Program-made: the position numbers and the translations under genes
In this document: positions 1 through 31,428 of the stretch, in pieces
How positions within the stretch are numbered: position 1 is the first letter of the stretch
How the letters are laid out: the number at the start of each line of letters is the position of its first letter
The notes under the pieces: model-generated
Databases searched by the model: none
What the model was told of the DNA's origin: nothing
The model's input: only the letters and a program-made list of their open reading frames with translations
NCBI GenBank assembly: GCA_022564935.1
Contig: JADFKM010000018.1
Coordinates: 1-32,707 of the forward strand
DNA length: 32,707 bases
Direction: 5' to 3'
Origin: Candidatus Dadabacteria bacterium
GTDB taxonomy: Bacteria; Desulfobacterota_D; UBA1144; Nemesobacterales; JADFKM01

Positions 1-711
1 GGGGCCTACGGTTTCCTACGGGTTTCGCTGCCCATCCTTCCCGATGCCGTGCAGCTCTTCCTGACGCCCATGCTCATCGTCTCCGTGATCGCCATCGTGT
101 ATGGCGCCTACGTGACCCTGGCCCAGACGGACATCAAACGCCTCATCGCCTTCTCGAGCATCAGCCACATGGGCTTCGTCACCCTGGGGATCTTCACCCT
201 CAACCGGAGCGGGGTGGAGGGCGCGATCCTGCAGATGATCAACCATGGGATCGTCAGCGCGGCCCTCTTCTTGTGCGTCGGCATGATCTACGAGCGTACC
301 CACACGCGCGAGATCGCGGACTACGGTGGAGTGGCCAAAGTCGCGCCGGTCTACGCCACCTTCCTGGCGCTCTTCTGCCTGGCCGCCGCGGGCTTCCCGG
401 GGTTGAACTCATTTATCGGAGAGTTCCTCATCATCTCCGGTGCCTTCCAAACCAACGCCTGGCTGGGCGGCATGGCCATCTGGGGTGTGGCCCTGGGAAC
501 GATTTACATGCTTTGGCTCTACTACCGGGTGGTCATGGGCGAGCGGAACCCGGGGCTTGACGGGCTCAAGCTCGAGCTCAACGCCCGTGAGGTGGCCACG
601 TTGGCCCCCCTCGCCTTCCTCGCCGTGGGTCTGGGCCTCTACCCGGAATGCGTCCTCTCGTATCTTCGTGAAACCGTGAAGGAACTTTTGGCGACCGGAG
701 CCACTCCATGA
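1..711 (+). CDS. nuoM: NADH-quinone oxidoreductase subunit M, 3' part
   Basis: C-terminal 236 residues of the antiporter-like membrane subunit NuoM of respiratory complex I, which helps couple quinone reduction to proton pumping. The frame is open from base 1, so the gene starts outside the window. The family signature around TLAQTDIKRLIAFSSISHMG (a lysine within a broken transmembrane helix, then the conserved SSISHMGF) is present, followed by about six hydrophobic helices. The stop overlaps the nuoN ATG in an ATGA arrangement, so translation is probably coupled. Codon use is strongly GC-rich at third positions, like the next three genes and unlike everything after about 3.1 kb. NuoL and MrpD are relatives; adjacency to nuoN and the C-terminus support NuoM. 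Confidence 0.93.
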   Translation, partial: GAYGFLRVSLPILPDAVQLFLTPMLIVSVIAIVYGAYVTLAQTDIKRLIAFSSISHMGFVTLGIFTLNRSGVEGAILQMINHGIVSAALFLCVGMIYERTHTREIADYGGVAKVAPVYATFLALFCLAAAGFPGLNSFIGEFLIISGAFQTNAWLGGMAIWGVALGTIYMLWLYYRVVMGERNPGLDGLKLELNAREVATLAPLAFLAVGLGLYPECVLSYLRETVKELLATGATP

Positions 712-2129
712 ACGGCGCGAACCTGACGGACGTGGCCCTGCTCTTGCCGGAGCTGATTCTGGTCGGCACGGCATTGGCGCTCCTCCTCGTGGCCCGCCGG
801 GTCCGGAAAGTACCCCGGGTCGCGGCCGCGACGGTTCTCGCGGCGCTGGTTGCCGCCTTCGTCTCCGGCTGGCAGTTGTCCGGAGGCACCCAAACCGGGT
901 TCGGCGGCATGTTCACGGTGGACGCGTACTCTCAATTCTTCAAGATTCTCATCCTCGCCGCCTTGGCGCTGGCCACACTCCTCTCCGTTCGGCGCATCGA
1001 CGAGGAGCGGATTCGGCCCGCCGAGTACCATGCCCTGCTCCTCCTGGCCTCGACGGGCATGATGTTCGCGGTCTCCGCCCTCGATCTCCTGACCCTCTAC
1101 CTGGGCCTCGAACTCATGACGCTCTGCTCCTACATTCTGGTCGGAATCACGGTGGAGCGATCCGCGTCAAACGAGGCCGCGATCAAGTACTTTCTCCTGG
1201 CGTCCTTCGCGTCGGCCCTCCTCCTTTACGGGATCGCCCTGACCTACGGCGTGACCGGCGCTACGGACTTTGCCGCCATTGCCTCGGCTCTCTCCGGGGT
1301 CGACCCCGCGAGCAACCCCATCCTCCTGGCGGCCATAGGGCTCATCGCCGCGGGCCTGGCCTTCAAGATTTCGGCGGCACCGTTCCACGCCTGGACCCCG
1401 GACGCGTACCAGGGTGCGAGCGTACCGGTCGCGGCCTTTTTGGCGGCCGCCTCCAAGGCGGCGGGCCTGGCCGCGATCGGACGCGTCTGCCTGGTCGCCT
1501 TCGCCTCTGAATCCCGCTTCTTGTCCGTGGTCCTGGCCGGGCTCGCCGGCCTTTCCATCCTCGTAGGGAGCATCATCGCTCTGGCCCAAACCGACATGAA
1601 ACGCCTACTGGCCTATTCCTCCATTGCCCATGCCGGCTACGCCATCCTGGGCTTCATTTCCGGAACTCCCGACGGGGCGTCGGCGACCATGACCTATACC
1701 TGCTTCCATGTCTTTATGACGTTGGGCGCCTTCGGCGTGGTGATCGCGCTGGGCGCTCGAGGCGAGAAACTGGACGGGTACCAGGGTCTGGCGGCGCAGC
1801 GCCCCGGAACCGCTGCGCTCATGCTCCTTTTCCTCTTGTCCCTGACCGGCATCCCGCCCACGGCGGGATTCGCGGCCAAGTTCGTCGTGATCCTCAGCGT
1901 CATGCGCGCGGGCTATCCGGGGTTGGCCGTATTGGCCGTGGTGTGCAGCGTGGTGTCGGCTTTCGTCTATCTGCGTGTGGCCGTCCTCATGTACATGAAA
2001 GAACCGCAGGAGCCGGCACCGTCCGGCTGTCCGGCGCCGGTGTTCGCGGCGCTTGCGGTGGCTGCGCTGGTCACTATACTAGGGGGAATCTTCCCGGGCA
2101 GCTTCTTGCGGTGGGCGGTGTCGCCATGA
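708..2129 (+). CDS. nuoN: NADH-quinone oxidoreductase subunit N
   Basis: Full-length NuoN (473 aa), an antiporter-like proton-channel subunit of complex I in the inner membrane. About 14 hydrophobic segments are visible. Conserved features include the helix-breaking FHAWTPDAYQGA motif, the AQTDMKRLLAYSSIAHAGY signature and the LTGIPPTAGFAAKF loop, all typical of NuoN. It begins inside the nuoM stop (ATGA overlap) and ends 43 bases before nuoA. Reading nuoN directly into nuoA is the reverse of the common nuoA-to-nuoN order, so the operon is circularly permuted or two copies lie in tandem. Confidence 0.95.
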   Translation: MNGANLTDVALLLPELILVGTALALLLVARRVRKVPRVAAATVLAALVAAFVSGWQLSGGTQTGFGGMFTVDAYSQFFKILILAALALATLLSVRRIDEERIRPAEYHALLLLASTGMMFAVSALDLLTLYLGLELMTLCSYILVGITVERSASNEAAIKYFLLASFASALLLYGIALTYGVTGATDFAAIASALSGVDPASNPILLAAIGLIAAGLAFKISAAPFHAWTPDAYQGASVPVAAFLAAASKAAGLAAIGRVCLVAFASESRFLSVVLAGLAGLSILVGSIIALAQTDMKRLLAYSSIAHAGYAILGFISGTPDGASATMTYTCFHVFMTLGAFGVVIALGARGEKLDGYQGLAAQRPGTAALMLLFLLSLTGIPPTAGFAAKFVVILSVMRAGYPGLAVLAVVCSVVSAFVYLRVAVLMYMKEPQEPAPSGCPAPVFAALAVAALVTILGGIFPGSFLRWAVSP

Positions 2130-2172
2130 TGCTTACAGCTCTGTTTCCTGATGAAAGCGAGGCCCTCTGCCG

Positions 2173-2526
2173 ATGAGCGAGTACATCGGGCTAGCGGTCA
2201 GTTTCGTCCTGGCCGGAGGGATCACGGGAGCGATGGTGCTGTTGGCCTCCACGCTGGGGAAAAAGAAGCCCTCACCCGTAAAGTTATCGACTTTCGAATG
2301 CGGAAAGGATCCCATCTCCCTCCCCTTCGGGAGGTTGGCGGTTAAGTTTTATTTGACGGCAATCCTTTTTATTCTCTTTGACGTCGAACTCGTTTTCCTC
2401 TACCCGTGGGCCGTCGTCTACCGCACGCTCGGAATCGTGGGCCTGGTGGAGATCGGGTTCTTTCTGGGGATCCTGATGGTGGGCTACATCTACGCCTGGG
2501 ACAACGGCGCCCTGGACTGGACTTGA
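2173..2526 (+). CDS. nuoA: NADH-quinone oxidoreductase subunit A
   Basis: NuoA (117 aa), a three-helix membrane subunit at the junction of the hydrophilic and membrane arms of complex I. The diagnostic stretch KLSTFECGKDP with the loop cysteine, followed by the FILFDVELVFLYPWAV helix with conserved acidic residues, is clear. Length is normal for the family. The ATG lies about 10 bases after a GAGG element. It is 1 base from nuoB and 43 bases from nuoN, so it is probably cotranscribed with both. Confidence 0.95.
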   Translation: MSEYIGLAVSFVLAGGITGAMVLLASTLGKKKPSPVKLSTFECGKDPISLPFGRLAVKFYLTAILFILFDVELVFLYPWAVVYRTLGIVGLVEIGFFLGILMVGYIYAWDNGALDWT

Positions 2527-2527
2527 C

Positions 2528-3028
2528 ATGCTGAACGATACGTTCATGACCAGTCGCCTCAACGCGGCCCTTGGCTGGGCCCGGAAGTTCTCGATCTTTC
2601 AGTATCCCTTCGTGACCGCGTGCTGCGGGATGGAGTACATGGCCACCGCCTGTTCTCACTACGACGTGGATCGCTTCGGAGCGGGCTTGCCCCGGTTTTC
2701 CCCGCGCCAGGCGGACGTGCTTTTCGTCGTGGGCACGATCAGTCACAAGATGGCGCCGGTCTTGAAACGCATCCATGACCAGATGGCCGAGCCGAAGTGG
2801 GTGGTCGCCTTCGGAGTTTGCACCTGCACGGGCGGCTTCTATGACAACTATGCGACCGTGATGGGGATCGACACGATCATGCCGGTTGACGTCTACATCC
2901 CGGGCTGCCCCCCGCGGCCGGAGATGGTCCTTGACGGGCTGATGAAACTTCAGGACAAGATCCAGGACCAGCATTCCACCGGCCGGCGGAGCGCGGCGGA
3001 AACTCGCCCGGACATGGACAACAAATGA
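2528..3028 (+). CDS. nuoB: NADH-quinone oxidoreductase subunit B
   Basis: NuoB (166 aa) carries the N2 [4Fe-4S] cluster that passes electrons to quinone. All four cluster cysteines can be seen: the tandem pair in TACCGMEYMA, the cysteine of FGVCTCTGG, and that of YIPGCPPRPE. The stop lies within an ATGA that could start the next gene (normally nuoC), but no nuoC-like gene follows. Base composition changes abruptly immediately after this gene. The C-terminal tail (RRSAAETRPDMDNK) is poorly conserved in the family, so the normal end cannot be verified from this alone. Confidence 0.94.
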   Translation: MLNDTFMTSRLNAALGWARKFSIFQYPFVTACCGMEYMATACSHYDVDRFGAGLPRFSPRQADVLFVVGTISHKMAPVLKRIHDQMAEPKWVVAFGVCTCTGGFYDNYATVMGIDTIMPVDVYIPGCPPRPEMVLDGLMKLQDKIQDQHSTGRRSAAETRPDMDNK

Positions 3029-12048: not shown

Positions 12049-12534
12049 TCACTTTGGAACTTCCCTGGTGACTTCGTTAATGCCCTGTCCGCCTGCAAAG
12101 ACAGCCTGTGTAAATCCGCATTCCTTAATCCTGTCCATACCCGTCATATCCTGGTATTCGGTGGTAAGGAACGGCTCTATAAAATGATCTTCGAGGGTGC
12201 ATATGGAGCAGAAAAAGACCACTATTTCGTCTTGTTCTCCTCTGGTGGAGACTATTATATCAACCTTTTCTTTCTCATAGTAGGCGTTCCAGTTGATGGA
12301 GCATATTGTGCGCTTAGGATTAGGCTTGACCTTTTCTTCGGTTTCCGCCACGGCTCCTTCGGTCTCTCCATCAACCTCCTCTCCGGGGATTCGGGCATCT
12401 TCTGTCTTAGACTCCTCCACCGCTCCCACACCATCCCCGTTTCCGAAAGCAGGCACATAATACAGCACACCGGCCAACACAAATGGAACTGTGAACCAAT
12501 ATAAGACTGATGCCCTTAAAATCAGTTTTTTCAT
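12049..12534 (-). CDS. hypothetical membrane-anchored protein with acidic linker
   Basis: 161 aa. A hydrophobic anchor (about residues 9-30) is followed by an acidic low-complexity linker rich in Glu, Asp and Gly (about 32-70) and a C-terminal domain with cysteines at TICSINW, FFCSICTLEDHF and KECGF, which may form disulphides outside the cytoplasm or bind a metal. The ATG at 12534 is chosen because GGAG lies 8 bases upstream; the frame could extend to a GTG at 12540, which would be too close to the Shine-Dalgarno site. Function not recognised. Confidence 0.6.
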   Translation of the reverse strand: MKKLILRASVLYWFTVPFVLAGVLYYVPAFGNGDGVGAVEESKTEDARIPGEEVDGETEGAVAETEEKVKPNPKRTICSINWNAYYEKEKVDIIVSTRGEQDEIVVFFCSICTLEDHFIEPFLTTEYQDMTGMDRIKECGFTQAVFAGGQGINEVTREVPK

Positions 12535-12564
12535 TTCCACCTCTCCAAGTAAGAGTTTCTTTTC

Positions 12565-12648: not shown

Positions 12649-13266
12649 TTAAAGGTCGTAATTTGATTCGAGCGACCTCAAATCATTTCTTATTTGAGAG
12701 GTTTCTATCTTAAAAACACCGATATCGTCACTGCCCTGAATCTCCGAGATTCCCTCAGACCTTCCGAATACAGGGACCAAAATAATCCCCAAGCCCAACC
12801 CGAGACATCCCCCCCACAAAAGCCATAGGAGCATTGGCGAGCTTCCGGTCAATCCGCTGAGAGCGATTACGCTGCCGCCCAAGAAAATGGCGACCGGGAG
12901 CCAGAAGGCGCCTTTGAGTATCATCACGACCATCTCCAGCGCGGCTCCGGGCTTTTCCCCTCTTTTCGCCAATCCGCCTCCAATACTGGCTCCCGTTATT
13001 AGGGCGGCAAACAGTGGAAAGAGCGGGGATATCAAACCGTATACCAACCCCGAAAGGAGGCCCGTAACAAAATTCCCCGCTACAGGGGCTTTTGACCTAA
13101 ATACCAATGGTACGGAAACCGACACCGCCGCGAAAAGCGAAGGGAAAAAGAGGTAGTCGTACACAGGCAGTTCCCCCAAAACCGATGAATAAGCTGCATA
13201 CACGCTAGCCCCGCTCGCGCTCCCAATCACCGAAGCTAGAATCAATTTGTAAAGGCGGTTGTTCAT
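12649..13266 (-). CDS. hypothetical polytopic membrane protein
   Basis: 205 aa with about five hydrophobic helices (roughly 7-27, 38-56, 65-92, 108-130, 140-162), small-residue rich (GLLSGLVYGLISPLFPLFAALITGASIGGGLAKRG), and a soluble charged C-terminal tail of about 40 residues (GISEIQGSDDIGVFKIETSQIRN...). The ATG follows AGGAGA at 8 bases. It lies 78 bases after the vWA gene on the same strand, so it may belong to the sigma/PspA/vWA group. Family not recognised. Confidence 0.7.
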   Translation of the reverse strand: MNNRLYKLILASVIGSASGASVYAAYSSVLGELPVYDYLFFPSLFAAVSVSVPLVFRSKAPVAGNFVTGLLSGLVYGLISPLFPLFAALITGASIGGGLAKRGEKPGAALEMVVMILKGAFWLPVAIFLGGSVIALSGLTGSSPMLLWLLWGGCLGLGLGIILVPVFGRSEGISEIQGSDDIGVFKIETSQIRNDLRSLESNYDL

Positions 13267-13344
13267 CTTTAATTTCTCCTGGATTCCTTAATCACTAACA
13301 CAGGGGGGAGGAATCAACCCTCTCCCCTCAATGCGATGCTAACG

Positions 13345-14736
13345 CTACTTCTGTAATTCTCTTGCCCTAGCCTTATGCTGCTTCAAGAACCTTTTCCCCT
13401 CGACAGATTGCGGCGAAGGCGCGGAGGTCTGCATATATCTCAATGCCCCTCTCATCTCAAACTCCTGCCTCTCGGTCTCTTCAGTCCTGAAAGAGGACTT
13501 ATTCAGATTAGATAGCTCTTCCAGCGCACTCTGCACCTTACCTATTGCGTCGTTCCGCCTGCCGCCCTCGTAATCTCCCGCAGCGCGGTACAGGGATAGA
13601 GCGGCATCTTTGGATACTTTCTGAGCGATAACGAGCTCGTTCTTGTTCACTTCCACCATTTTCTTGTCCTCAGTGCAATGGTATGAAAGCGTCTTAACAA
13701 GCCTTACGGGCTTAGCGCCGTTGTTCATATCCATGTACTGGAAAGTGGCCGACCCAAGGGATTGCTTTCCGGGTTTGTCCGTAGGCACCTTGATCTTAAC
13801 CATGATGTTCCGCTCCTGACCGCCGTAAAGGTCGCCGGTGTTTATGCGAATCCCACCGTCAACTTCTGAGTATTCGTACCCGTAAACCTCCTTTACCTCC
13901 ACACCTTTGGGGAAACGGAAGTAAACGGCCGGAGACTTCGCCACCGTGTTTATCATTTCCCCAAACTCACGTTCAAAGATCGAGGCGACCTGAGCAGGCG
14001 ATTCGATGAAGTAATAATTCCCCGTGCCGTGCTCGGCAAGGCTCATCAGGAGGTTTTCGTCGAAATGTAACCCAAGTCCCATCGTGGTAATACCGATGCC
14101 CGTCTCTGCGGCGTCGCTTGCAATGCGGGAGAGCTGCGGTATTGCTGTGATTCCCCTGTTGGCCAGGCCGTCTGAGAGCAGTATCAACCGGTTCAATCTC
14201 CCCTTCCCGTCAACGCCTTTTAGTTCCTCAATGCCCTTAACCAACCCCCCTGATAGGTTGGTCGAGTTTGTAGGTGTAAGAGAATTTATAGCGATAATGG
14301 CTACATCTCTCGCCTCAAGAAACTGGAGCGGATAAAGCAGCTGCACGTTGTCCGAGTAGGAGACCAGTCCAAGCCTGTCTGTAGAGCGTAAGGCGCTTAC
14401 TATCTGAGTGGCCGCCTTCTTGGCATATTCCAGCTTGCCCTTATCGGCCATCGAACCGCTCCTGTCAATCACGAGTACCAGATTCAAAGGCGTACGTTTG
14501 CCCTTAGCTTTCCTTTCAGTGCCTTTGAACCGTAGATTCAACACCAATTCGCCGTCCGAATTCTGAGCCACATACGGGTGGCTTAGCTTCAAATCCCACT
14601 TCACGGATTGGGAGTTAAAAACAGCCGGATTATCAATAACCGGAAACGCCAAAAAAAACCTGACGCCGAGTGGAATCAAAAACAAAGCGGCTAAAACGCC
14701 TAATACAATTAAAAGATCGCGCTTCTTATTCATCAT
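13345..14736 (-). CDS. membrane-anchored von Willebrand factor A domain protein
   Basis: 463 aa. An N-terminal transmembrane anchor (about residues 8-30) is followed by a beta-rich stretch, then a vWA domain (about 84-265) with an intact metal-ion-dependent adhesion site: D91-R-S93-G-S95, T159 in TNSTNLSGG, and D189 in LLSDG. After it comes a beta domain (to about 370) and a helical Arg/Glu-rich C-terminus. It resembles YfbK-like and other bacterial extracytoplasmic vWA proteins, which act as divalent-metal-dependent protein-binding modules. GGAGG lies 6 bases before the first of two ATGs. The start overlaps the PspA stop (ATGA), strongly implying a joint function. Confidence 0.88.
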   Translation of the reverse strand: MMNKKRDLLIVLGVLAALFLIPLGVRFFLAFPVIDNPAVFNSQSVKWDLKLSHPYVAQNSDGELVLNLRFKGTERKAKGKRTPLNLVLVIDRSGSMADKGKLEYAKKAATQIVSALRSTDRLGLVSYSDNVQLLYPLQFLEARDVAIIAINSLTPTNSTNLSGGLVKGIEELKGVDGKGRLNRLILLSDGLANRGITAIPQLSRIASDAAETGIGITTMGLGLHFDENLLMSLAEHGTGNYYFIESPAQVASIFEREFGEMINTVAKSPAVYFRFPKGVEVKEVYGYEYSEVDGGIRINTGDLYGGQERNIMVKIKVPTDKPGKQSLGSATFQYMDMNNGAKPVRLVKTLSYHCTEDKKMVEVNKNELVIAQKVSKDAALSLYRAAGDYEGGRRNDAIGKVQSALEELSNLNKSSFRTEETERQEFEMRGALRYMQTSAPSPQSVEGKRFLKQHKARARELQK

Positions 14737-15395
14737 GCGTGACCTCCTTTTTTAATGTTCTTTTTTATTCTCTGTAGCTCCTCTTCTATCAACTTGTCCT
14801 CTTTTTTGATTGCGGCCTCATCTATCCACAGAGCAGCACTTAGGGCCCTTTCCCTCTCGACCCTCTCTTCCATTCTTCCAAGAATACCGAACGGGTCATC
14901 GGAGCTAACCGTATCCCCTCGCTGAGGCGCTCCTACACCTTCGGGCATGACACCCCTGTTCAACCTGATGGTTTTGAGAAGCATCTCCCTTTTCGAGCGT
15001 GCCGTCCTTACCCTTGCTTCAAGCTCCTTGAGCTTCGCGCTCATCTCCCCCAACGCCTCACAGTCGTCTTTTTGCAGCAGCGTCAGGTTGCGTCGCTGCT
15101 CTTCGAGGAAGCGCTTTCTCCTTATCGCCTCCCTTGCGTTCTCTTCCATCTCATCGCGCACAAACTCCTGCGCGCTCCTGAGTGCCTCTTCTATTTGCTC
15201 ATCAACGCTTTCGATGAGCTTTTTCCTTCCTTCAACCCTGGACCCCAGGGCCACCGCCTTTCCCCTGACTTTCAGAAGCGCCTCGTCAATCTCCTCAACC
15301 GCCTGATTGATTATCTTCTCGGGGTCTTCGGAAAGGGTGACCCAGTGGTTAAACTGTGATTTTACTACCGTTTTTAATCTGCCTTTGAATCCCAT
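14733..15395 (-). CDS. PspA/IM30 family protein
   Basis: 220 aa and almost entirely alpha-helical, with long coiled coils (about residues 25-145 and 165-215). The start (MGFKGRLKTVVKSQFNHWVTLSEDPEKIINQAVEEI) matches the PspA/Vipp1 beginning, including the amphipathic N-terminal helix and the EDPEK motif that precedes the hairpin. Members are bacterial ESCRT-III relatives that assemble on the inner membrane and protect it under stress. Proteobacterial PspA is normally beside pspBC/pspF; none is here, and instead it is coupled to a vWA protein. GAGG lies 9 bases before the ATG. The 319 bases upstream suggest an own promoter. Confidence 0.85.
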   Translation of the reverse strand: MGFKGRLKTVVKSQFNHWVTLSEDPEKIINQAVEEIDEALLKVRGKAVALGSRVEGRKKLIESVDEQIEEALRSAQEFVRDEMEENAREAIRRKRFLEEQRRNLTLLQKDDCEALGEMSAKLKELEARVRTARSKREMLLKTIRLNRGVMPEGVGAPQRGDTVSSDDPFGILGRMEERVERERALSAALWIDEAAIKKEDKLIEEELQRIKKNIKKGGHA

Positions 15396-15714
15396 TGTTC
15401 TTTGCCTCGGTGAAAAGTATTTTAATTGTTCATACGACTCGGAGCCGGATAGGTTTTAAAAAATTTTTCGACTCGACAAATTCCAGGGAGACAAGGTAAG
15501 GCGCTGTGGATATTAATATTCACCACATTGCTCTAAACCGGGGGGAGCTACAGTCGAACAAGCAGCTCTACGAACATCAATGAGTTGGGGTAAGTAATTG
15601 TTTAGCTCAAAGGCAGGCGGCATTAAAGCAAAACCCCGTAATGATACTCAAGACCTCTTTGGGAAATTTAGGGACAGCGCTTATTTCGTCATCCGTCCTT
15701 CTTTGGTCTCAGCC
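15396..15714. other. 319-base intergenic region upstream of pspA-like gene
   Basis: No coding frame convinces. An AT-rich imperfect hairpin is centred on ATATTAATAT (15506-15523, extending to a TGTGG/CCACA pair), and a GAGCT...AGCTC pair lies at 15545-15567. I found no clear sigma70 promoter, and no sigma54 (GG-N10-GC type) site that I could defend. The region probably holds the control of pspA-vWA. Confidence 0.4.
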
Positions 15715-16995
15715 TCAGTGTTTTGCTTTGGGCTCGGAGCGTATCTGCTTCAAATTAAGGGACTGGATCTTGCGGTTTGAAAAATCGGTTTGCGAAGGCG
15801 ACACGAGCTTTAGACTGTTGTAAGTGTCGATCGCCATCTGCCACCGACCCGTCTGCTCGTAGCACTGGGCAAGGGATAGATATGCCTGCTCTCGAACCTC
15901 CGTTGGGGCTTCCTCGGAGGAGCCGAGCAGCGAGTTGTTGGTTTTAATCGAAGCTTCGCAGTCCCCCGAGGCCTGCTGCTTCAGGGCCAGCCTTAACTGT
16001 GTGGTGTGTACGCTCTCTTCGTTCTCGACCACAGTACCCGCATCCGCGCGCATCTCTTCGAGGACGGGTTCATCAACATGTAAAGATTCGGTTTGCTCAT
16101 CGTCCGACAACACTCCCTCCGTTTCCAGAGCTTCGGTGCGGTATGAGGGACCGGGCGGAGACACGGCAGCCACTTCTTTTGACTCTTTTGCCCGCTTCTT
16201 TCGTGGGTCTTCTGGATAGGGCTTTTGTGAGGCCGGCCAGCCGGTTTTGTGGCCGAGCTCATACACCGGAGAGCTAACGGAGGATGCGGGCGACGATTCC
16301 GGTTTCTTGCTCGCGGCACCGAACAGCGCAGCTCCACCGCTGATTCCTTCACCCGAGCCCTGTAATTTAACGTCCTCAGTTGAGGCATTCTTATCCTTTA
16401 CCTCTCCCGATTTAACAATTTCCCTTCGTTTCTTCATTGGTGAAATTTTATCCTGGGCTACATCTTGCCTGGCGACAATATCGCCCTCCACTACTCCGGC
16501 AGCTTCGTCTCTACCCTCAGCTCCTCCAACTACAAAATCGCCACCAATATCCGCCTTTCTCTCTCCCGCCTCAGGCCGCCCCTTGGTTTGGAGCTTCTTT
16601 GCAACCGCCTTGGTAGAGTAGTCGTCGTACAACCCCCTATCTTGCTCAGAAACAGTGCGGGGGGAAGTATCGATTATCTCTCCTGTTTCGTGTCCATAGT
16701 TAACCCACAGCATTATTGCGATTGCGGAGCTTAAAACGGGGACGAGAACAGGGGAGAAGAACCACCTTCTCCACAACGGGGGTTTATGTGAGCGCACCGC
16801 CTTCTTTGCGGCCTCAGACAGCCCGGCGATAACCTCGGCAGAGGGCTCTTCGGTGTAGCTTTTGTTGAAAGCCCGGCTTATCTCGAGGTACTGCTCAATT
16901 TCCTGCGGACTGATGCCCTCGCCTCGTACGGCACCCGTTTCTTCCCCCTCATTCGAGGTGTCCTCAATGAGGTCTTTGTATTTCCTTTCGTCCAT
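15715..16995 (-). CDS. putative anti-sigma factor with TPR-like C-terminus
   Basis: 426 aa, 5 bases downstream of the ECF sigma gene. The cytoplasmic N-terminus (about 1-75) is charged and helical and would be the sigma-binding part; the zinc anti-sigma motif HxxxCxxC is absent. One transmembrane helix lies at about 78-98 (WFFSPVLVPVLSSAIAIMLWV). A long disordered extracytoplasmic region rich in Lys, Glu, Ser and Pro follows (about 100-320). The C-terminal roughly 90 residues look like tetratricopeptide helices (EVREQAYLSLAQCYEQTGRWQMAIDTYNSL). Assignment as anti-sigma rests on position, topology and length; sequence similarity to a known family was not recognised. A rich AG tract in the end of the sigma gene serves as ribosome site. 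Confidence 0.65.
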   Translation of the reverse strand: MDERKYKDLIEDTSNEGEETGAVRGEGISPQEIEQYLEISRAFNKSYTEEPSAEVIAGLSEAAKKAVRSHKPPLWRRWFFSPVLVPVLSSAIAIMLWVNYGHETGEIIDTSPRTVSEQDRGLYDDYSTKAVAKKLQTKGRPEAGERKADIGGDFVVGGAEGRDEAAGVVEGDIVARQDVAQDKISPMKKRREIVKSGEVKDKNASTEDVKLQGSGEGISGGAALFGAASKKPESSPASSVSSPVYELGHKTGWPASQKPYPEDPRKKRAKESKEVAAVSPPGPSYRTEALETEGVLSDDEQTESLHVDEPVLEEMRADAGTVVENEESVHTTQLRLALKQQASGDCEASIKTNNSLLGSSEEAPTEVREQAYLSLAQCYEQTGRWQMAIDTYNSLKLVSPSQTDFSNRKIQSLNLKQIRSEPKAKH

Positions 16996-17000
16996 AATTT

Positions 17001-17627
17001 TTATGCCCTCTTCCCCTCCTCAAAGTATCCCACGCGGATAAACACTTCTCTCAACTTTTTGTAAGCGTACCTGAGGCGGCTTTTTACGGTGCCAAGAGGC
17101 GCATCCACTATATCGGCGATTTCCTTAAGGGCCATGTCTTCGATCTCCCTCAGCAAAAAAACCTCTCTTATCTCATCACTCATGTCCTCCATACCCCTGT
17201 CCATAATCTCCCTTATCTCGCTGTCCATTGCCTTTTGCTCCTGGTCTCTCTCCTCGCTCTCAACAACGTTGAAAAGAACAGGGCCCGCACCTTCGCGGCC
17301 GTAAACGGGGGCCTCAAATAATTCATGCCGCCTGTTTTTGTGAACCCGCATGTAATCAATGCAATGGTTCCTAGTAATCGTGTAAAGCCATGTGGTGAAT
17401 TTCTTATCCGGGTCATAACTCCCGCGCCGCTCAATCACTTTAAGAAACACCTCCTGCATCAGGTCTTCGGCCGAGCACTGCTCTATGTGCAGCATCTTCA
17501 TTACATATCTCAACACAGGGGCTCCATGCCTGTCCAGAAGGATTTCAAACGCTCGCCCGTCCCCGTCCTGATACATACGCATTGCATCTTCATCGCTCAG
17601 GTCGAGATGGAATTTTAAATTCAACAC
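17001..17627 (-). CDS. ECF-type RNA polymerase sigma factor
   Basis: 208 aa group IV sigma-70. The sigma2 domain lies at about residues 20-95 (FEILLDRHGAPVLRYVMKML, AEDLMQEVFLKVI, FTTWLYTITRNHCIDYMR: core-binding and -10 recognition). An acidic linker follows, then sigma4 at about 140-200 (FLLREIEDMALKEIADIVDAPLGTVKSRLRYAYKKLRE, a helix-turn-helix for the -35). Sigma1.1 and sigma3 are absent, as expected. The start is GTG at 17627, overlapping a following TTG; no good Shine-Dalgarno site is seen, so it may start a few codons later. Heads the leftward group with the anti-sigma gene. Its target promoters probably include this locus, but that cannot be shown from sequence. Confidence 0.92.
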   Translation of the reverse strand: MLNLKFHLDLSDEDAMRMYQDGDGRAFEILLDRHGAPVLRYVMKMLHIEQCSAEDLMQEVFLKVIERRGSYDPDKKFTTWLYTITRNHCIDYMRVHKNRRHELFEAPVYGREGAGPVLFNVVESEERDQEQKAMDSEIREIMDRGMEDMSDEIREVFLLREIEDMALKEIADIVDAPLGTVKSRLRYAYKKLREVFIRVGYFEEGKRA

Positions 17628-17740
17628 TGTATGCGCACGCCTAAACTTGAATCACTACAAATCTCTTATAATTTATTATACGATATAAACACGAAATTGT
17701 TTTATCTATTTTAAACGGGAAAGCGGGGGAGTCTAAAAGT

Positions 17741-20118: not shown

Positions 20119-21360
20119 ATGAATCAAGCCTGCGCCGCCCTGGTATTTTGTTTTTTTCTCATCCTCAGTACGGGCGTCTTGAACACCTATGCGCAAAACG
20201 AAGACAACGTCCTAACCCTCGATGACGCGATCGACCTCGTTATCAAAAAAAATCCCGGCCTTAGGGTATCGGAAGCTGAAATTTCGGTGAGCCGCTCCAA
20301 GCTAAGAAAAGCGCAATCCAATCTATACCCGCAGCTACACTTCAAATTCATCCTCCCGTTTATAGAGCGAGAATCGGGGGTATTTGTCGACCAGCTCATA
20401 TGGGATTTTGGGAGAACTCCGAATTTAATAAAACTCCACAAGGCAAACCTTAAAGCGTCCAAGTACGACTGGAGCACTGAAATTGCCGACGCGGTACTGA
20501 ACACAAAGATCCAGTACTACACCGCTCTCGGGGAAAAGCTCAGGTGGAAGGCGGCTAAAAAGCTTCTCCTGGAGAAAGAGAAAAAGCTGGATCAGCGTGA
20601 AAACTTCTTGAAGCTGGGAAGAGCCTCACAGCTCGATGTAATGAATTCAAGAGTGGAGCTTGGAAACGCCAAACTGCACATGCTGAGCATAAAATACGCT
20701 ATGGAAGGGGCCAGAATCGAACTTGCGAAACTCACCGGAATAAAAGGCGATTTTAACTACCAACTCCAAGATATGTTAGACTATATACCAGTATACATAG
20801 ACCTGGATGCCGCGATAAAAAGGGGGTTGTCGCTTCGTCCAGAACTTAAGAGCCTCAAAGTAAAAGCAGTGGGAATGAAGGCAAATGTAAGGGCATCTCT
20901 ACAGCGCTTTTATCCGATCATAGTTGCAAGGGCGGCCTACAGGTTTGAGGGAGCCGGAGCCACCGGCCCCGATCTTATAGGAGGCGTTGGTATCAAGATG
21001 CCGATATTCGACGGGTTCTCAACCCTCTCCGACGTAAGGGAGTCAAAGGCCAAGCTCCGCCGCACACAGGCAGAAATCGCATCCCTTGAGCAAAATATCA
21101 TCTCCGATATCAAGCACCTCCATTTGGACTTAACACTGGGGAAAGAGAAAGTAGAAGTGACGCGCACTTCCAAAACACAAACCAAAGAAAACTACAGGTT
21201 GATGAAAGAGAACTTCCGTCTCGGACGACTGTCTGAAATTGAATTGATCGGGGCCGAAGCCCTTTTTGAATCTACTAAAGCCGAGCACTACAAGGCGATC
21301 TACGATTATAAGATTGCCCTTGCAAAACTGGGAAGAGCTATTGGGGAGAGCATCGAATAA
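20119..21360 (+). CDS. TolC-family outer membrane efflux protein
   Basis: 413 aa. A signal peptide (to about residue 25, ...NTYA) is followed by two tandem outer-membrane efflux protein repeats with long helices, for example TLDDAIDLVIKKNPGLRVSEAEI and RVELGNAKLHMLSIKYAMEGARIELAKLTG. It would form the trimeric outer membrane channel of a tripartite exporter. It is slightly shorter than E. coli TolC (mature about 470 aa). GGGAGG lies 7 bases before the ATG. The stop overlaps the next start by one base (TAATG), so it is the first gene of a coupled tolC-macA-macB-macB operon. Confidence 0.9.
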   Translation: MNQACAALVFCFFLILSTGVLNTYAQNEDNVLTLDDAIDLVIKKNPGLRVSEAEISVSRSKLRKAQSNLYPQLHFKFILPFIERESGVFVDQLIWDFGRTPNLIKLHKANLKASKYDWSTEIADAVLNTKIQYYTALGEKLRWKAAKKLLLEKEKKLDQRENFLKLGRASQLDVMNSRVELGNAKLHMLSIKYAMEGARIELAKLTGIKGDFNYQLQDMLDYIPVYIDLDAAIKRGLSLRPELKSLKVKAVGMKANVRASLQRFYPIIVARAAYRFEGAGATGPDLIGGVGIKMPIFDGFSTLSDVRESKAKLRRTQAEIASLEQNIISDIKHLHLDLTLGKEKVEVTRTSKTQTKENYRLMKENFRLGRLSEIELIGAEALFESTKAEHYKAIYDYKIALAKLGRAIGESIE

Positions 21361-22526
21361 TGAATATCTTCCAAAACCGAATATTACTAATGTCTGGCGC
21401 AGCCGTTTTAGCCTTGATCCTGATATATGCATTCTTTCTGAAAGATACCAGCCCGGATGTCATATATAGCATGGCAAGTGTGGACAAAGGCGATATAAAA
21501 TCATACGTCAGGGCCACGGGAACCATAAATCCGGTCACCACAGCAGAAATAGGCACTCAGTTCTCTGGTATAGCTAAAAAGGTGTTTGTTGATTTCAACT
21601 CCAAAGTCAAAGCCGGAGACCCCCTCGTTCAGCTTGACCCCAAACCCTTCGCCGCAAAGGTTAACAGCGCTGGGGCCAACCTCAATAAGGCGAAGGCAGA
21701 AGCCGAGCTTGCCCTCGGACTATACCAAGGCAATAAAGAGTTGTTTTCAAAGCGCCTTATATCAAAGCAAGAATTTTCTGACTCAAAAGCAAAATACGCT
21801 TCGGCAAAAGCTTCCGTGGAACAGGCTGAAGCCGCCCTAACCTTGGAAAATGCAAACCTCGAATCCACAACGCTGCGCTCCCCCATCGACGGCATAGTCA
21901 TATCGAGAAAGGTCAACGTGGGTCAGGCCTTATTCCCCGGCGACCCTTCCAAGCACCTGTTTCTAATAGCCGAGGACATCGCCAGAATGCAGCTTTCAAC
22001 GCATGTCAGCGAGGCCGACATCGGAAGAGTAAAGGAAGGTCAGACCACCACGTTCACCGTAGACGCCTATAGAAAAGAAACATTTAAGGGTAAAGTTTTG
22101 CAGGTAAGGAACGAGCCGATAACCGAAAATAACGTGGTCACATACAACGTGATTATCCTCGTAAACAACGACGACCTCAAGCTCAAACCGGGTATGACCG
22201 CTGCTGTGAGCCTTCTCACCGCCGAGAAAAAAAATGCTCCCAGAGTGCCTAAAGAGGCCCTCAGATTCCTTCCCCCTCCTCTTGCCCGCATGGACGAAAA
22301 ATCTAAGAATATTTACGGCCGCAACGTGGTATGGATAAAAGTTAAGATGAACATGATATCCGCAGTTCCAATTACTACCGGTATTAGCGACGAATATTTT
22401 ATAGAAATTCTCGAGGGAAGCGACCTGAAAGAAGGCCAGAAGGTAATAGTAGCCGCAACTCAAACAAGGTCTGCCGAGGGCAACAACCTGGGCCCCCTTA
22501 AACTCCCTCAACCAAAGAGGTTCTGA
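21360..22526 (+). CDS. macA: MacA-like periplasmic adaptor (HlyD/RND family)
   Basis: 388 aa. An N-terminal transmembrane anchor (about 9-27) is followed by a barrel-sandwich (lipoyl-like) domain split around a helical hairpin (YVRATGTINPVTTAEIGTQFSGIAKKVFVDFNSKVKAGDPLVQLDP ... STTLRSPIDGIVISRKVNVGQ in two halves), then beta-barrel and membrane-proximal domains (LKPGMTAAVSLLTAE). It bridges the MacB pump and the TolC channel. Coupled to tolC and 4 bases before the ATPase gene. Substrate unknown: MacA/B systems export macrolides, lipopeptides, siderophores or heme-related molecules. Confidence 0.9.
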   Translation: MNIFQNRILLMSGAAVLALILIYAFFLKDTSPDVIYSMASVDKGDIKSYVRATGTINPVTTAEIGTQFSGIAKKVFVDFNSKVKAGDPLVQLDPKPFAAKVNSAGANLNKAKAEAELALGLYQGNKELFSKRLISKQEFSDSKAKYASAKASVEQAEAALTLENANLESTTLRSPIDGIVISRKVNVGQALFPGDPSKHLFLIAEDIARMQLSTHVSEADIGRVKEGQTTTFTVDAYRKETFKGKVLQVRNEPITENNVVTYNVIILVNNDDLKLKPGMTAAVSLLTAEKKNAPRVPKEALRFLPPPLARMDEKSKNIYGRNVVWIKVKMNMISAVPITTGISDEYFIEILEGSDLKEGQKVIVAATQTRSAEGNNLGPLKLPQPKRF

Positions 22527-22530
22527 ACCG

Positions 22531-23256
22531 TTGGGGAGCCTTATTGAGCTGGAAGATATAACGAAGATCTATTGTGTGGGAGCCGTTGAAGTTCATGCAT
22601 TACGCAGGGTTTCTCTCATTATAGAAGAGGGTGAATTCGTCGCTATAATGGGTCCTTCCGGCTCGGGTAAAAGCACCCTGATGAACATAATCGGGTGCCT
22701 TGATGTACCAACAACCGGGACGTACAAACTCGAGGGCAGAGATGTGGGAGCGCTCCAGAGCGACTCACTCGCAGAAATAAGAAACCATGCGCTGGGTTTT
22801 GTATTTCAGAGTTTTAACCTTCTTCAACGAGCGACGGCTTTAGAAAATGTAGAGCTGCCGCTCGTATACAACAACACCCCTACAAACACGAGGAAAATGC
22901 TTGCACTCAAAGCGCTGAAGAGCCTAGGGCTCGAAGGCAGGGAAAAACACTTACCCACGCAGCTCTCCGGCGGACAGCAGCAGAGAGTGGCGCTTGCAAG
23001 AGCCATTGTCAACTCCCCTCGTACCATTCTTGCAGACGAGCCTACAGGGAACGTTGACACTAAAACAAGCATGGAGATAATGGATATTCTCACCGACCTC
23101 AATAGAGGGGGCAAAACCGTCATCATGATCACACATGAGCAAGAAATCGCCTCCTTTGCTCAAAGGATAGTTAAGCTGAGAGACGGCCTAATAACGTCCG
23201 ACACACCCCGGAACGATTCAGCCGCGAACAAAACCATAGCGGGTGAAAAGCTATGA
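22531..23256 (+). CDS. MacB-type ABC transporter ATP-binding protein
   Basis: 241 aa nucleotide-binding domain of the LolD/MacB (FtsE-like) group. Walker A GPSGSGKST (about residue 41), Q-loop FVFQSFNLL, signature LSGGQQQR, Walker B ILADEPTGNVD and switch histidine ITHE are all present, so it should be active. In E. coli MacB the ATPase and permease are one chain; here they are separate genes. The start is TTG at 22531; AGAGG lies about 11 bases upstream, inside the end of macA. The stop overlaps the permease ATG (ATGA). Confidence 0.93.
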   Translation: MGSLIELEDITKIYCVGAVEVHALRRVSLIIEEGEFVAIMGPSGSGKSTLMNIIGCLDVPTTGTYKLEGRDVGALQSDSLAEIRNHALGFVFQSFNLLQRATALENVELPLVYNNTPTNTRKMLALKALKSLGLEGREKHLPTQLSGGQQQRVALARAIVNSPRTILADEPTGNVDTKTSMEIMDILTDLNRGGKTVIMITHEQEIASFAQRIVKLRDGLITSDTPRNDSAANKTIAGEKL

Positions 23257-24467
23257 GTCCCCTAATTGCGCTGATGATATCCTGGAGGGCTCTCAGAGCA
23301 AATAAGGCACGCTCGATACTCACAACCCTCGGCATTATCATTGGCGTTTCCGCCGTCATAACGATGGTCGCTCTTACCAACGGAGCAAAGAAGATAATAG
23401 AAGACCAGCTAATCAGTCTCGGCGGCAAATCCCTGATCATTAATTCGGGAAGACGCACTTCGAGCAGGGTTCTGGCCGGAACAGGCCCAGTGGTCACTCT
23501 CAGCGCGCAGGACGCCGAGGCAATTAAGAGACTGGGAGTGGTAAATTACACAGCACCAATCATCAAAACAGCCAAACAGGTGGTATCGGGCAACCGGAAC
23601 TTGTATACGGCAATCGTAGGCACGGGTGTGGATTTTCCCCCCATAAACGACTGGTATCCGGAGCAGGGCAATTTTTTTATACCGGAAGATATTGAAACGG
23701 CTGCCTTAGTGTGCGTACTCGGAAAGACCGTAGCAAACAATCTGTTCGGGTTCATAAACCCCATAGGCGCACAGGTAAGAATAGACAAAAACTCCTACAC
23801 CGTACTGGGTGTCCTAAGCTCTAAAGGGCAGACCCCGAGCGGAAAAGACCAGGACGACATAATCATAATACCCTACACCACATACCAGAAGCGGTTGGAG
23901 AGGATGGACAAGGTCGAGGACATAGCCGTGTCGGTGCGAACTCCAAACGAAGTACCGATAGCCATGGAGCAGATTGCGCTTCTACTGAGAGAGCGCCATA
24001 ACATATCTTCCTCTATGGAGGATGATTTCTACATAAAAAGTCAGCGACATGTCACTGAGCGCATATTCTCTGTTTCAAAAATAATGACAATACTTCTGGC
24101 AAGCATTGCTTCGGTTTCACTTCTGGTCGGTGGAATCGGGATAATGAACATAATGCTCGTGTCGGTGACCGAAAGGACAAAAGAAATAGGCATCAGGATT
24201 GCCGTTGGGGCGAAAAAACGCGACATTCTCGTCCAATTTTTAATCGAGGCGGTTCTTCTCTCCATCGTGGGTGGACTGGTAGGCGTATTCTTGGGAATCG
24301 CAGGCTCAAAGACATCTTCTCTCATCACAGGCTGGCCGACCGTGATTTCTATCACTTCGGTTATAGTCTCGTTCAGCTTCTCGGCTATCGTAGGTATATT
24401 CTTCGGTCTTTACCCTGCGGTCAAGGCATCGTCGCTCGACCCCATAGAGGCGCTTAGGTACGAGTAG
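23253..24467 (+). CDS. MacB-type ABC transporter permease
   Basis: 404 aa. Four transmembrane helices in the type VII ABC arrangement: one near the N-terminus (ILTTLGIIIGVSAVITMVAL), a large periplasmic MacB_PCD domain (about 45-270), then three FtsX-like helices (ILLASIASVSLLVGGIGIMNIMLVSVTERTKEIGIR..., AVLLSIVGGLVGVFLGIAG, VSFSFSAIVGIFFGLYPA) and the typical SLDPIEALRYE end. These pumps drive periplasmic substrates out through TolC rather than transporting across the inner membrane. Last gene of the efflux operon. Confidence 0.93.
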   Translation: MSPLIALMISWRALRANKARSILTTLGIIIGVSAVITMVALTNGAKKIIEDQLISLGGKSLIINSGRRTSSRVLAGTGPVVTLSAQDAEAIKRLGVVNYTAPIIKTAKQVVSGNRNLYTAIVGTGVDFPPINDWYPEQGNFFIPEDIETAALVCVLGKTVANNLFGFINPIGAQVRIDKNSYTVLGVLSSKGQTPSGKDQDDIIIIPYTTYQKRLERMDKVEDIAVSVRTPNEVPIAMEQIALLLRERHNISSSMEDDFYIKSQRHVTERIFSVSKIMTILLASIASVSLLVGGIGIMNIMLVSVTERTKEIGIRIAVGAKKRDILVQFLIEAVLLSIVGGLVGVFLGIAGSKTSSLITGWPTVISITSVIVSFSFSAIVGIFFGLYPAVKASSLDPIEALRYE

Positions 24468-31317: not shown

Positions 31318-31428
31318 GCCGGCCTCCCGTTTAATCGATTTGACAATATGTACGAACGAATTTCTAAAAGGATTTAATGAACGGTAAATAACGAATGGAT
31401 ATTTGAAATGAGGTAAGTGCTCTTTCAA

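Follow-up and report, generated by a model that had tools for sequence, protein, structure and literature searches.

A candidate ECF sigma factor regulon in Candidatus Dadabacteria with PspA, a vWA protein, a membrane protein and a secreted cysteine-rich protein

The window analysed here, 32,707 nucleotides in length, is an entire contig from a metagenome-assembled genome of 1.99 Mb that is 89% complete. The original prediction, made from the sequence of the window, placed five same-strand genes together as an envelope-stress module: an ECF sigma factor, an anti-sigma-like protein, PspA, a vWA protein and a membrane protein. We found all five on the minus strand at the positions collected in Table 1. 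A sixth gene, which encodes a secreted protein and had been overlooked, joins the unit by its conservation.

Table 1. Genes and predicted promoters of the unit, in window coordinates
Feature	Position	Strand	Basis
ECF sigma factor	17001..17627	-	Pfam; SigW as nearest solved structure; adjoins anti-sigma
Predicted sigma-dependent promoter of the sigma gene, AAAACAATTTCGTGTTTATATCGTATAAT	17670..17707	-	13.8 bits, left-out matrix
Anti-sigma, degenerate zf-HC2 N-terminus, one TM, TPR end	15715..16995	-	20-homologue alignment; hydropathy
Predicted sigma-dependent promoter of pspA, AAAACCTATCCGGCTCCGAGTCGTATGA	15424..15461	-	18.6 bits, left-out matrix
PspA/IM30 (ESCRT-III type) protein	14733..15395	-	PF04012; family profile
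vWA protein, N-terminal membrane anchor, predicted periplasmic	13345..14736	-	PF00092; metal site; hydropathy
Multi-TM membrane protein, proposed PspA partner	12649..13266	-	Co-occurrence with PspA; model
Secreted cysteine-rich protein	12049..12540	-	11-homologue alignment; neighbourhood conservation

Two other parts of the window deserve a remark. Positions 1-3000, which hold NADH:quinone oxidoreductase-type antiporter genes, have a G+C content of 0.61-0.65 compared with about 0.50 elsewhere, from natural variation or an assembly join. On the plus strand, TolC-like, HlyD-like, ABC ATPase and MacB-like genes stand in a row at 20119-24467 and make up a tripartite efflux operon close to the stress module; there is no strong sigma motif at its start.

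The sigma protein has 208 residues and is matched in Pfam only by sigma-70 regions 2 and 4 (Sigma70_r2 at 5.4e-18, r4 at 6.9e-10), as expected of the ECF factor it was said to be. The best PDB match of the family profile is Bacillus SigW (5wuq, 3.2e-31), and the protein falls below the NCBI curated cut-offs for SigW itself (108.7 bits against 209 for PRK09641, 100.5 against 243 for TIGR02948). The sigma gene adjoins the anti-sigma gene in all loci that hold both. There are about 10 other sigma-70-family matches in the same genome, and some of these will be primary or flagellar types.

By hydropathy, the anti-sigma has a single transmembrane segment (residues 80-98). Pfam finds weak TPR matches at its C-terminal end, a part that is predicted to lie outside the membrane and is preceded by a long variable linker, so we agree with the first description of a membrane anti-sigma ending in TPR-like repeats. 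That description also had the protein lacking a zinc motif, which is right for the window copy and wrong for the family. An alignment of 20 homologues shows an early cysteine and HxxxCxxC near the N-terminus in most members, then one transmembrane segment and a long region that varies between members; the TPR end is conserved, and within it two cysteines (C346 and C378 in the window protein) are shared by all 20. The zf-HC2 profile, PF13490, matches 19 of the 20. The sole exception is the window copy, which has neither a zf-HC2 match nor HxxxCxxC. Judged by the profile matches, the family is of the ordinary zinc-finger (zf-HC2) type, and because 19 of 20 homologues match, the window copy reads as a degenerate descendant of it. 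The f7 member at L058 is also without the cysteines, yet the zf-HC2 profile matches it. We rejected two other accounts of the missing motif. A frameshift does not explain the loss, as the motif region is in frame, and in the other frames there are stop codons but no motif; a zinc-less class of anti-sigma is at odds with the 19 matching homologues.

The PspA assignment stands, with a PF04012 match at E 3.8e-16 (60 bits against a cut-off of 34) and a family profile that matches solved PspA/Vipp1 from residue 1 (E 4.9e-24). It is the sole PspA match in its own genome. A single-sequence PspA scan of genome contigs gave no match. When 100 relatives were searched, this type of PspA turned up in 13 further members of the order (E values between 1e-12 and 6e-50), and matches elsewhere were weak. 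The classical partners PspB, PspC and PspF had been called absent. This holds at the locus, where no PspB, PspC, PspF or Lia-type partner occurs among the annotated neighbours, and PspC was not found in the 89% complete genome. It does not carry over to the relatives, since 20 of 42 in the order have stand-alone PspC genes, with or without PspA.

The gene that follows PspA from genome to genome is the one for the membrane protein. Its profile matches 13 of 57 genomes: 13 of the 14 with PspA and none of the 43 without (Fisher p 6e-12, ignoring shared ancestry). In the fourteenth PspA genome, the PspA itself is cut by a contig end. For vWA the counts are 12 of 14 and 4 of 43, and the membrane protein looks to us like the better candidate for a PspA partner. 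PspA and the membrane protein appear to form an optional module on a core of sigma, anti-sigma and vWA. The membrane protein has no Pfam family; it has six predicted helices and a C-terminal helix in a model of middling confidence (pLDDT 70), and a fold search returned no significant match, though the protein may still have a known fold. Because of the co-occurrence we propose that PspA docks on this protein, and the C-terminal helix is a plausible place for it.

The vWA protein (PF00092, E 1.4e-19) has its metal-site residues D91, S93, S95, T159 and D189 invariant in 15 homologues. Hydropathy gives one hydrophobic segment, N-terminal at residues 7-25 after a basic start, and then a long predicted periplasmic part, so we predict that the vWA domain lies outside the membrane. 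The earlier description of a membrane-anchored vWA protein with an intact metal site agrees with both of these results. In one relative (G007; L025 7072-8639) the vWA gene is broken up into two open reading frames that overlap, probably by a frameshift or an assembly error.

The secreted protein of the window has a single conserved domain, about 90 residues long, with four invariant cysteines in an alignment of 11 homologues; several relatives have the domain duplicated in tandem, in two copies. The protein is conserved in the neighbourhood of the locus in relatives, and members of the family also occur away from it in G003, G015 and G025. The window protein has no Pfam family. The structure model is a confident alpha-beta one from residue 70 on, for which Foldseek gave no significant match (best E 0.36) and structure comparison gave low Z only, the best being 5.9 with the AspS pilotin; the domain may still have a known fold.

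The original prediction expected the linkage of these genes to be kept in relatives, and it is kept across the order. Within Candidatus Dadabacteria, other genera and other families of the order also have sigma, anti-sigma, pspA, vWA and the membrane protein as neighbours; the vWA proteins are 43-50% identical. Where the contig permits, most of the surroundings are shared: sigma and anti-sigma come first, followed by pspA, vWA and the membrane protein, with the secreted protein last. There are cases with fewer members. In three g9 genomes and one f7 genome, sigma, anti-sigma and vWA stand directly in a row and no PspA was found in the genome; one f6 genome has only sigma, anti-sigma and the secreted protein. 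From these loci without PspA or without vWA, the core is sigma and anti-sigma, nearly always with vWA, and the other members are optional. Outside the phylum, PspA neighbourhoods in about 20 genomes held no homologue of vWA, the membrane protein or the anti-sigma. In one genome of another phylum (G183, L234 4953-7104) an ECF-type sigma gene and a pspA share a strand, the sigma gene being upstream by about 500 bases, with no anti-sigma recognised, and this is possibly an independent ECF-PspA link.

A search for a shared ECF-type motif before sigma and pspA had also been suggested. We found one motif common to the upstream regions of sigma genes, of pspA genes and, where the genome is without PspA, of vWA genes. 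The motif, TAAAACYTTTC...TCGTATTA with TAAAAC-N16-CGTA spacing, matches the Bacillus sigmaW consensus TGAAAC-N16,17-CGTA (PMC2375139). All 19 sigma genes examined have it upstream, with an AAC-type -35 and a CGT-type -10. Because this placement is like that of autoregulation, we infer that this sigma factor reads the shared motif, and the sigma gene itself would be autoregulated from the predicted promoter.

Sites were selected by a consensus derived from the same sequences and the scoring alone left each locus out, each site being scored with a matrix trained without its locus; scored in this way, 34 of 35 sites take one of the top two places when all positions in their own locus are ranked, usually far ahead of the next. 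The exception is the sigma site of the window, at rank 3 of 65,340 positions, with a chance of about 1.7e-6 per position. The pspA site of the window has a score reached by 0 of 3.0 million simulated positions. Both are weak compared with the sites of relatives (13.8 and 18.6 bits against mostly 25-41), and since the zinc ligands of the anti-sigma are lost as well, regulation in this particular genome may have drifted. In G025 the unit is in two places, with sigma and anti-sigma on one contig and pspA, vWA and the membrane protein in the interior of another. The motif precedes each of them, which favours regulation over mere adjacency. We conclude that the sigma factor very probably does induce pspA-vWA, as had been proposed, by a promoter common to both units in relatives.

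The regulon appears to consist of two linked promoters. With a strict pattern in 42 genomes of the order, other matches, where scorable, fell well below the operon sites. In the genome of the window the pattern had 6 matches against 7 for a reversed control, and beyond the two operon sites nothing stood above chance. A further match in the window, of 21.7 bits at 31342-31379 on the minus strand, lies a short way downstream of the gene for an alpha/beta hydrolase (homoserine acetyltransferase-like). No open reading frame of at least 35 codons starts after it on that strand for about 600 bases, and there is no Rfam match; the site could drive a small RNA or be a chance match.

Taken together, we think it reasonably probable that Dadabacteria have a small ECF regulon, complete in itself, for the protection of the cell envelope, working in the following way. 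The sigma factor would be held by the single-pass anti-sigma through its zf-HC2-type cytoplasmic N-terminus (degenerate here), with the TPR end outside. The TPR end may sense envelope stress, upon which the anti-sigma would be inactivated, probably by regulated proteolysis as in other membrane anti-sigmas. The freed sigma factor would transcribe its own gene from the predicted sigmaW-like promoter, giving self-amplification, and from the other such promoter the operon of pspA, vWA, membrane protein and secreted protein. From the cytoplasmic side PspA would support the inner membrane, and it would probably dock on the membrane protein by the C-terminal helix of that protein. On the outer face, vWA and the cysteine-rich secreted protein are most likely metal-dependent adhesion or scaffold partners, which is a guess on our part, and they may feed back to the TPR sensor.

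A bolder form of this proposal takes the locus to be a distinct type of Psp system. It would have a dedicated two-promoter ECF regulon, the membrane protein family as the obligate docking partner of PspA, and vWA, the secreted protein and the TPR anti-sigma with its two family-conserved cysteines as a periplasmic sensing arm that reports the state of the envelope to PspA. We offer this tentatively, as the odds seem to us to lie somewhat against it.

The strongest competitor to a dedicated envelope-stress regulon is that sigma, anti-sigma and vWA are an older envelope or surface system, into which PspA and the membrane protein were inserted behind the promoter as an extra output, so that it is not a Psp response as such. 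The same predicted promoter directly precedes vWA where PspA is absent, and in Bacteroidota, Ignavibacteria and a planctomycete vWA homologues occur near ECF sigma genes, some with a zf-HC2 anti-sigma, without PspA. However, four families of the order (f1-f4) have PspA with its partner, and the absence of PspA from g9, a genus within f2, looks like loss, although our gene trees do not decide between loss and gain of PspA there. We regard this account as unlikely.

The original prediction had the vWA protein controlling or anchoring PspA assemblies, with the PspA-vWA pair as the functional core, and this did not hold up well. The pspA stop does overlap the vWA start as ATGA, in keeping with the translational coupling that had been noted, and in relatives, too, pspA and vWA either adjoin or overlap. 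Proteins of the PspA family are found in the cytoplasm, though, while the vWA domain is predicted to be on the other side of the membrane; four genomes (G006, G012, G024, G029) keep vWA with sigma and anti-sigma and have no PspA that we could find; and the gene that tracks PspA is the one for the membrane protein. Because of the predicted periplasmic location and the genomes that keep vWA without PspA, direct control of PspA by vWA seems unlikely to us, and we give very little credence to the reading as a whole. It is more improbable still that the neighbours are functionally unrelated and held together by slow rearrangement: some relatives likewise have flanking genes such as a UPF0047 gene and hemW nearby, but the motif precedes both units even on different contigs, pspA and vWA overlap, and the linkage is conserved across families at about 45-50% protein identity.

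If the dedicated ECF regulon is the right reading, an uncultured phylum gains a concrete candidate for an envelope-stress circuit, together with strong candidates for a new membrane partner of PspA and a new secreted domain. It also suggests that pspA is under sigmaW-like promoter control far outside the Firmicutes. The combination had been put forward as one not recognised as described. Our literature searches on ECF factors with zf-HC2 and vWA and on Dadabacteria sigma factors returned nothing on this system, and the terms vWA and ECF are absent from the main text of two recent Psp surveys (PMC11237479, PMC9239133); however, an ECF factor is already known to control pspA in Bacillus (PMC8581546). 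What is new here is an anti-sigma that carries TPRs, together with two families of partner proteins that have no Pfam entry.

The classical Psp system (PspF, PspA, PspB, PspC) and the Lia system share with this locus a PspA/IM30 protein as envelope effector. They differ in that they are under the control of an enhancer-binding protein or a two-component system, in place of the ECF sigma factor predicted here, and no PspB, PspC, PspF or Lia-type partner is recognised at the Dadabacteria locus. Another likeness is to neighbourhoods in Bacteroidota and Ignavibacteria, where a homologous vWA gene neighbours the gene for an ECF sigma factor and some loci also have a zf-HC2 anti-sigma. There, however, vWA is mostly on the strand opposite the sigma gene, and neither PspA nor the membrane partner nor the cysteine-rich secreted protein is present in the flanks examined.

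The closest likeness is to sigmaW and RsiW of Bacillus. RsiW is a zinc-finger type membrane anti-sigma. Both systems have an ECF sigma factor, a membrane anti-sigma and a nearly identical promoter (TGAAAC-N16,17-CGTA in Bacillus, TAAAAC-N16-CGTA as predicted here; PMC2375139), and in both pspA is first in an operon with membrane partners: sigmaW drives the pspA-ydjGHI operon of Bacillus subtilis, where PspA needs its partners for its localisation (PMC8581546). There are also clear differences. In Bacillus pspA is one of many targets, whereas in Dadabacteria two linked promoters are apparent. The Dadabacteria anti-sigma carries a long linker and TPRs, and where the Bacillus partners are YdjG, YdjH and the SPFH protein YdjI, those in Dadabacteria are vWA, a previously undescribed multi-TM protein and a cysteine-rich secreted protein.
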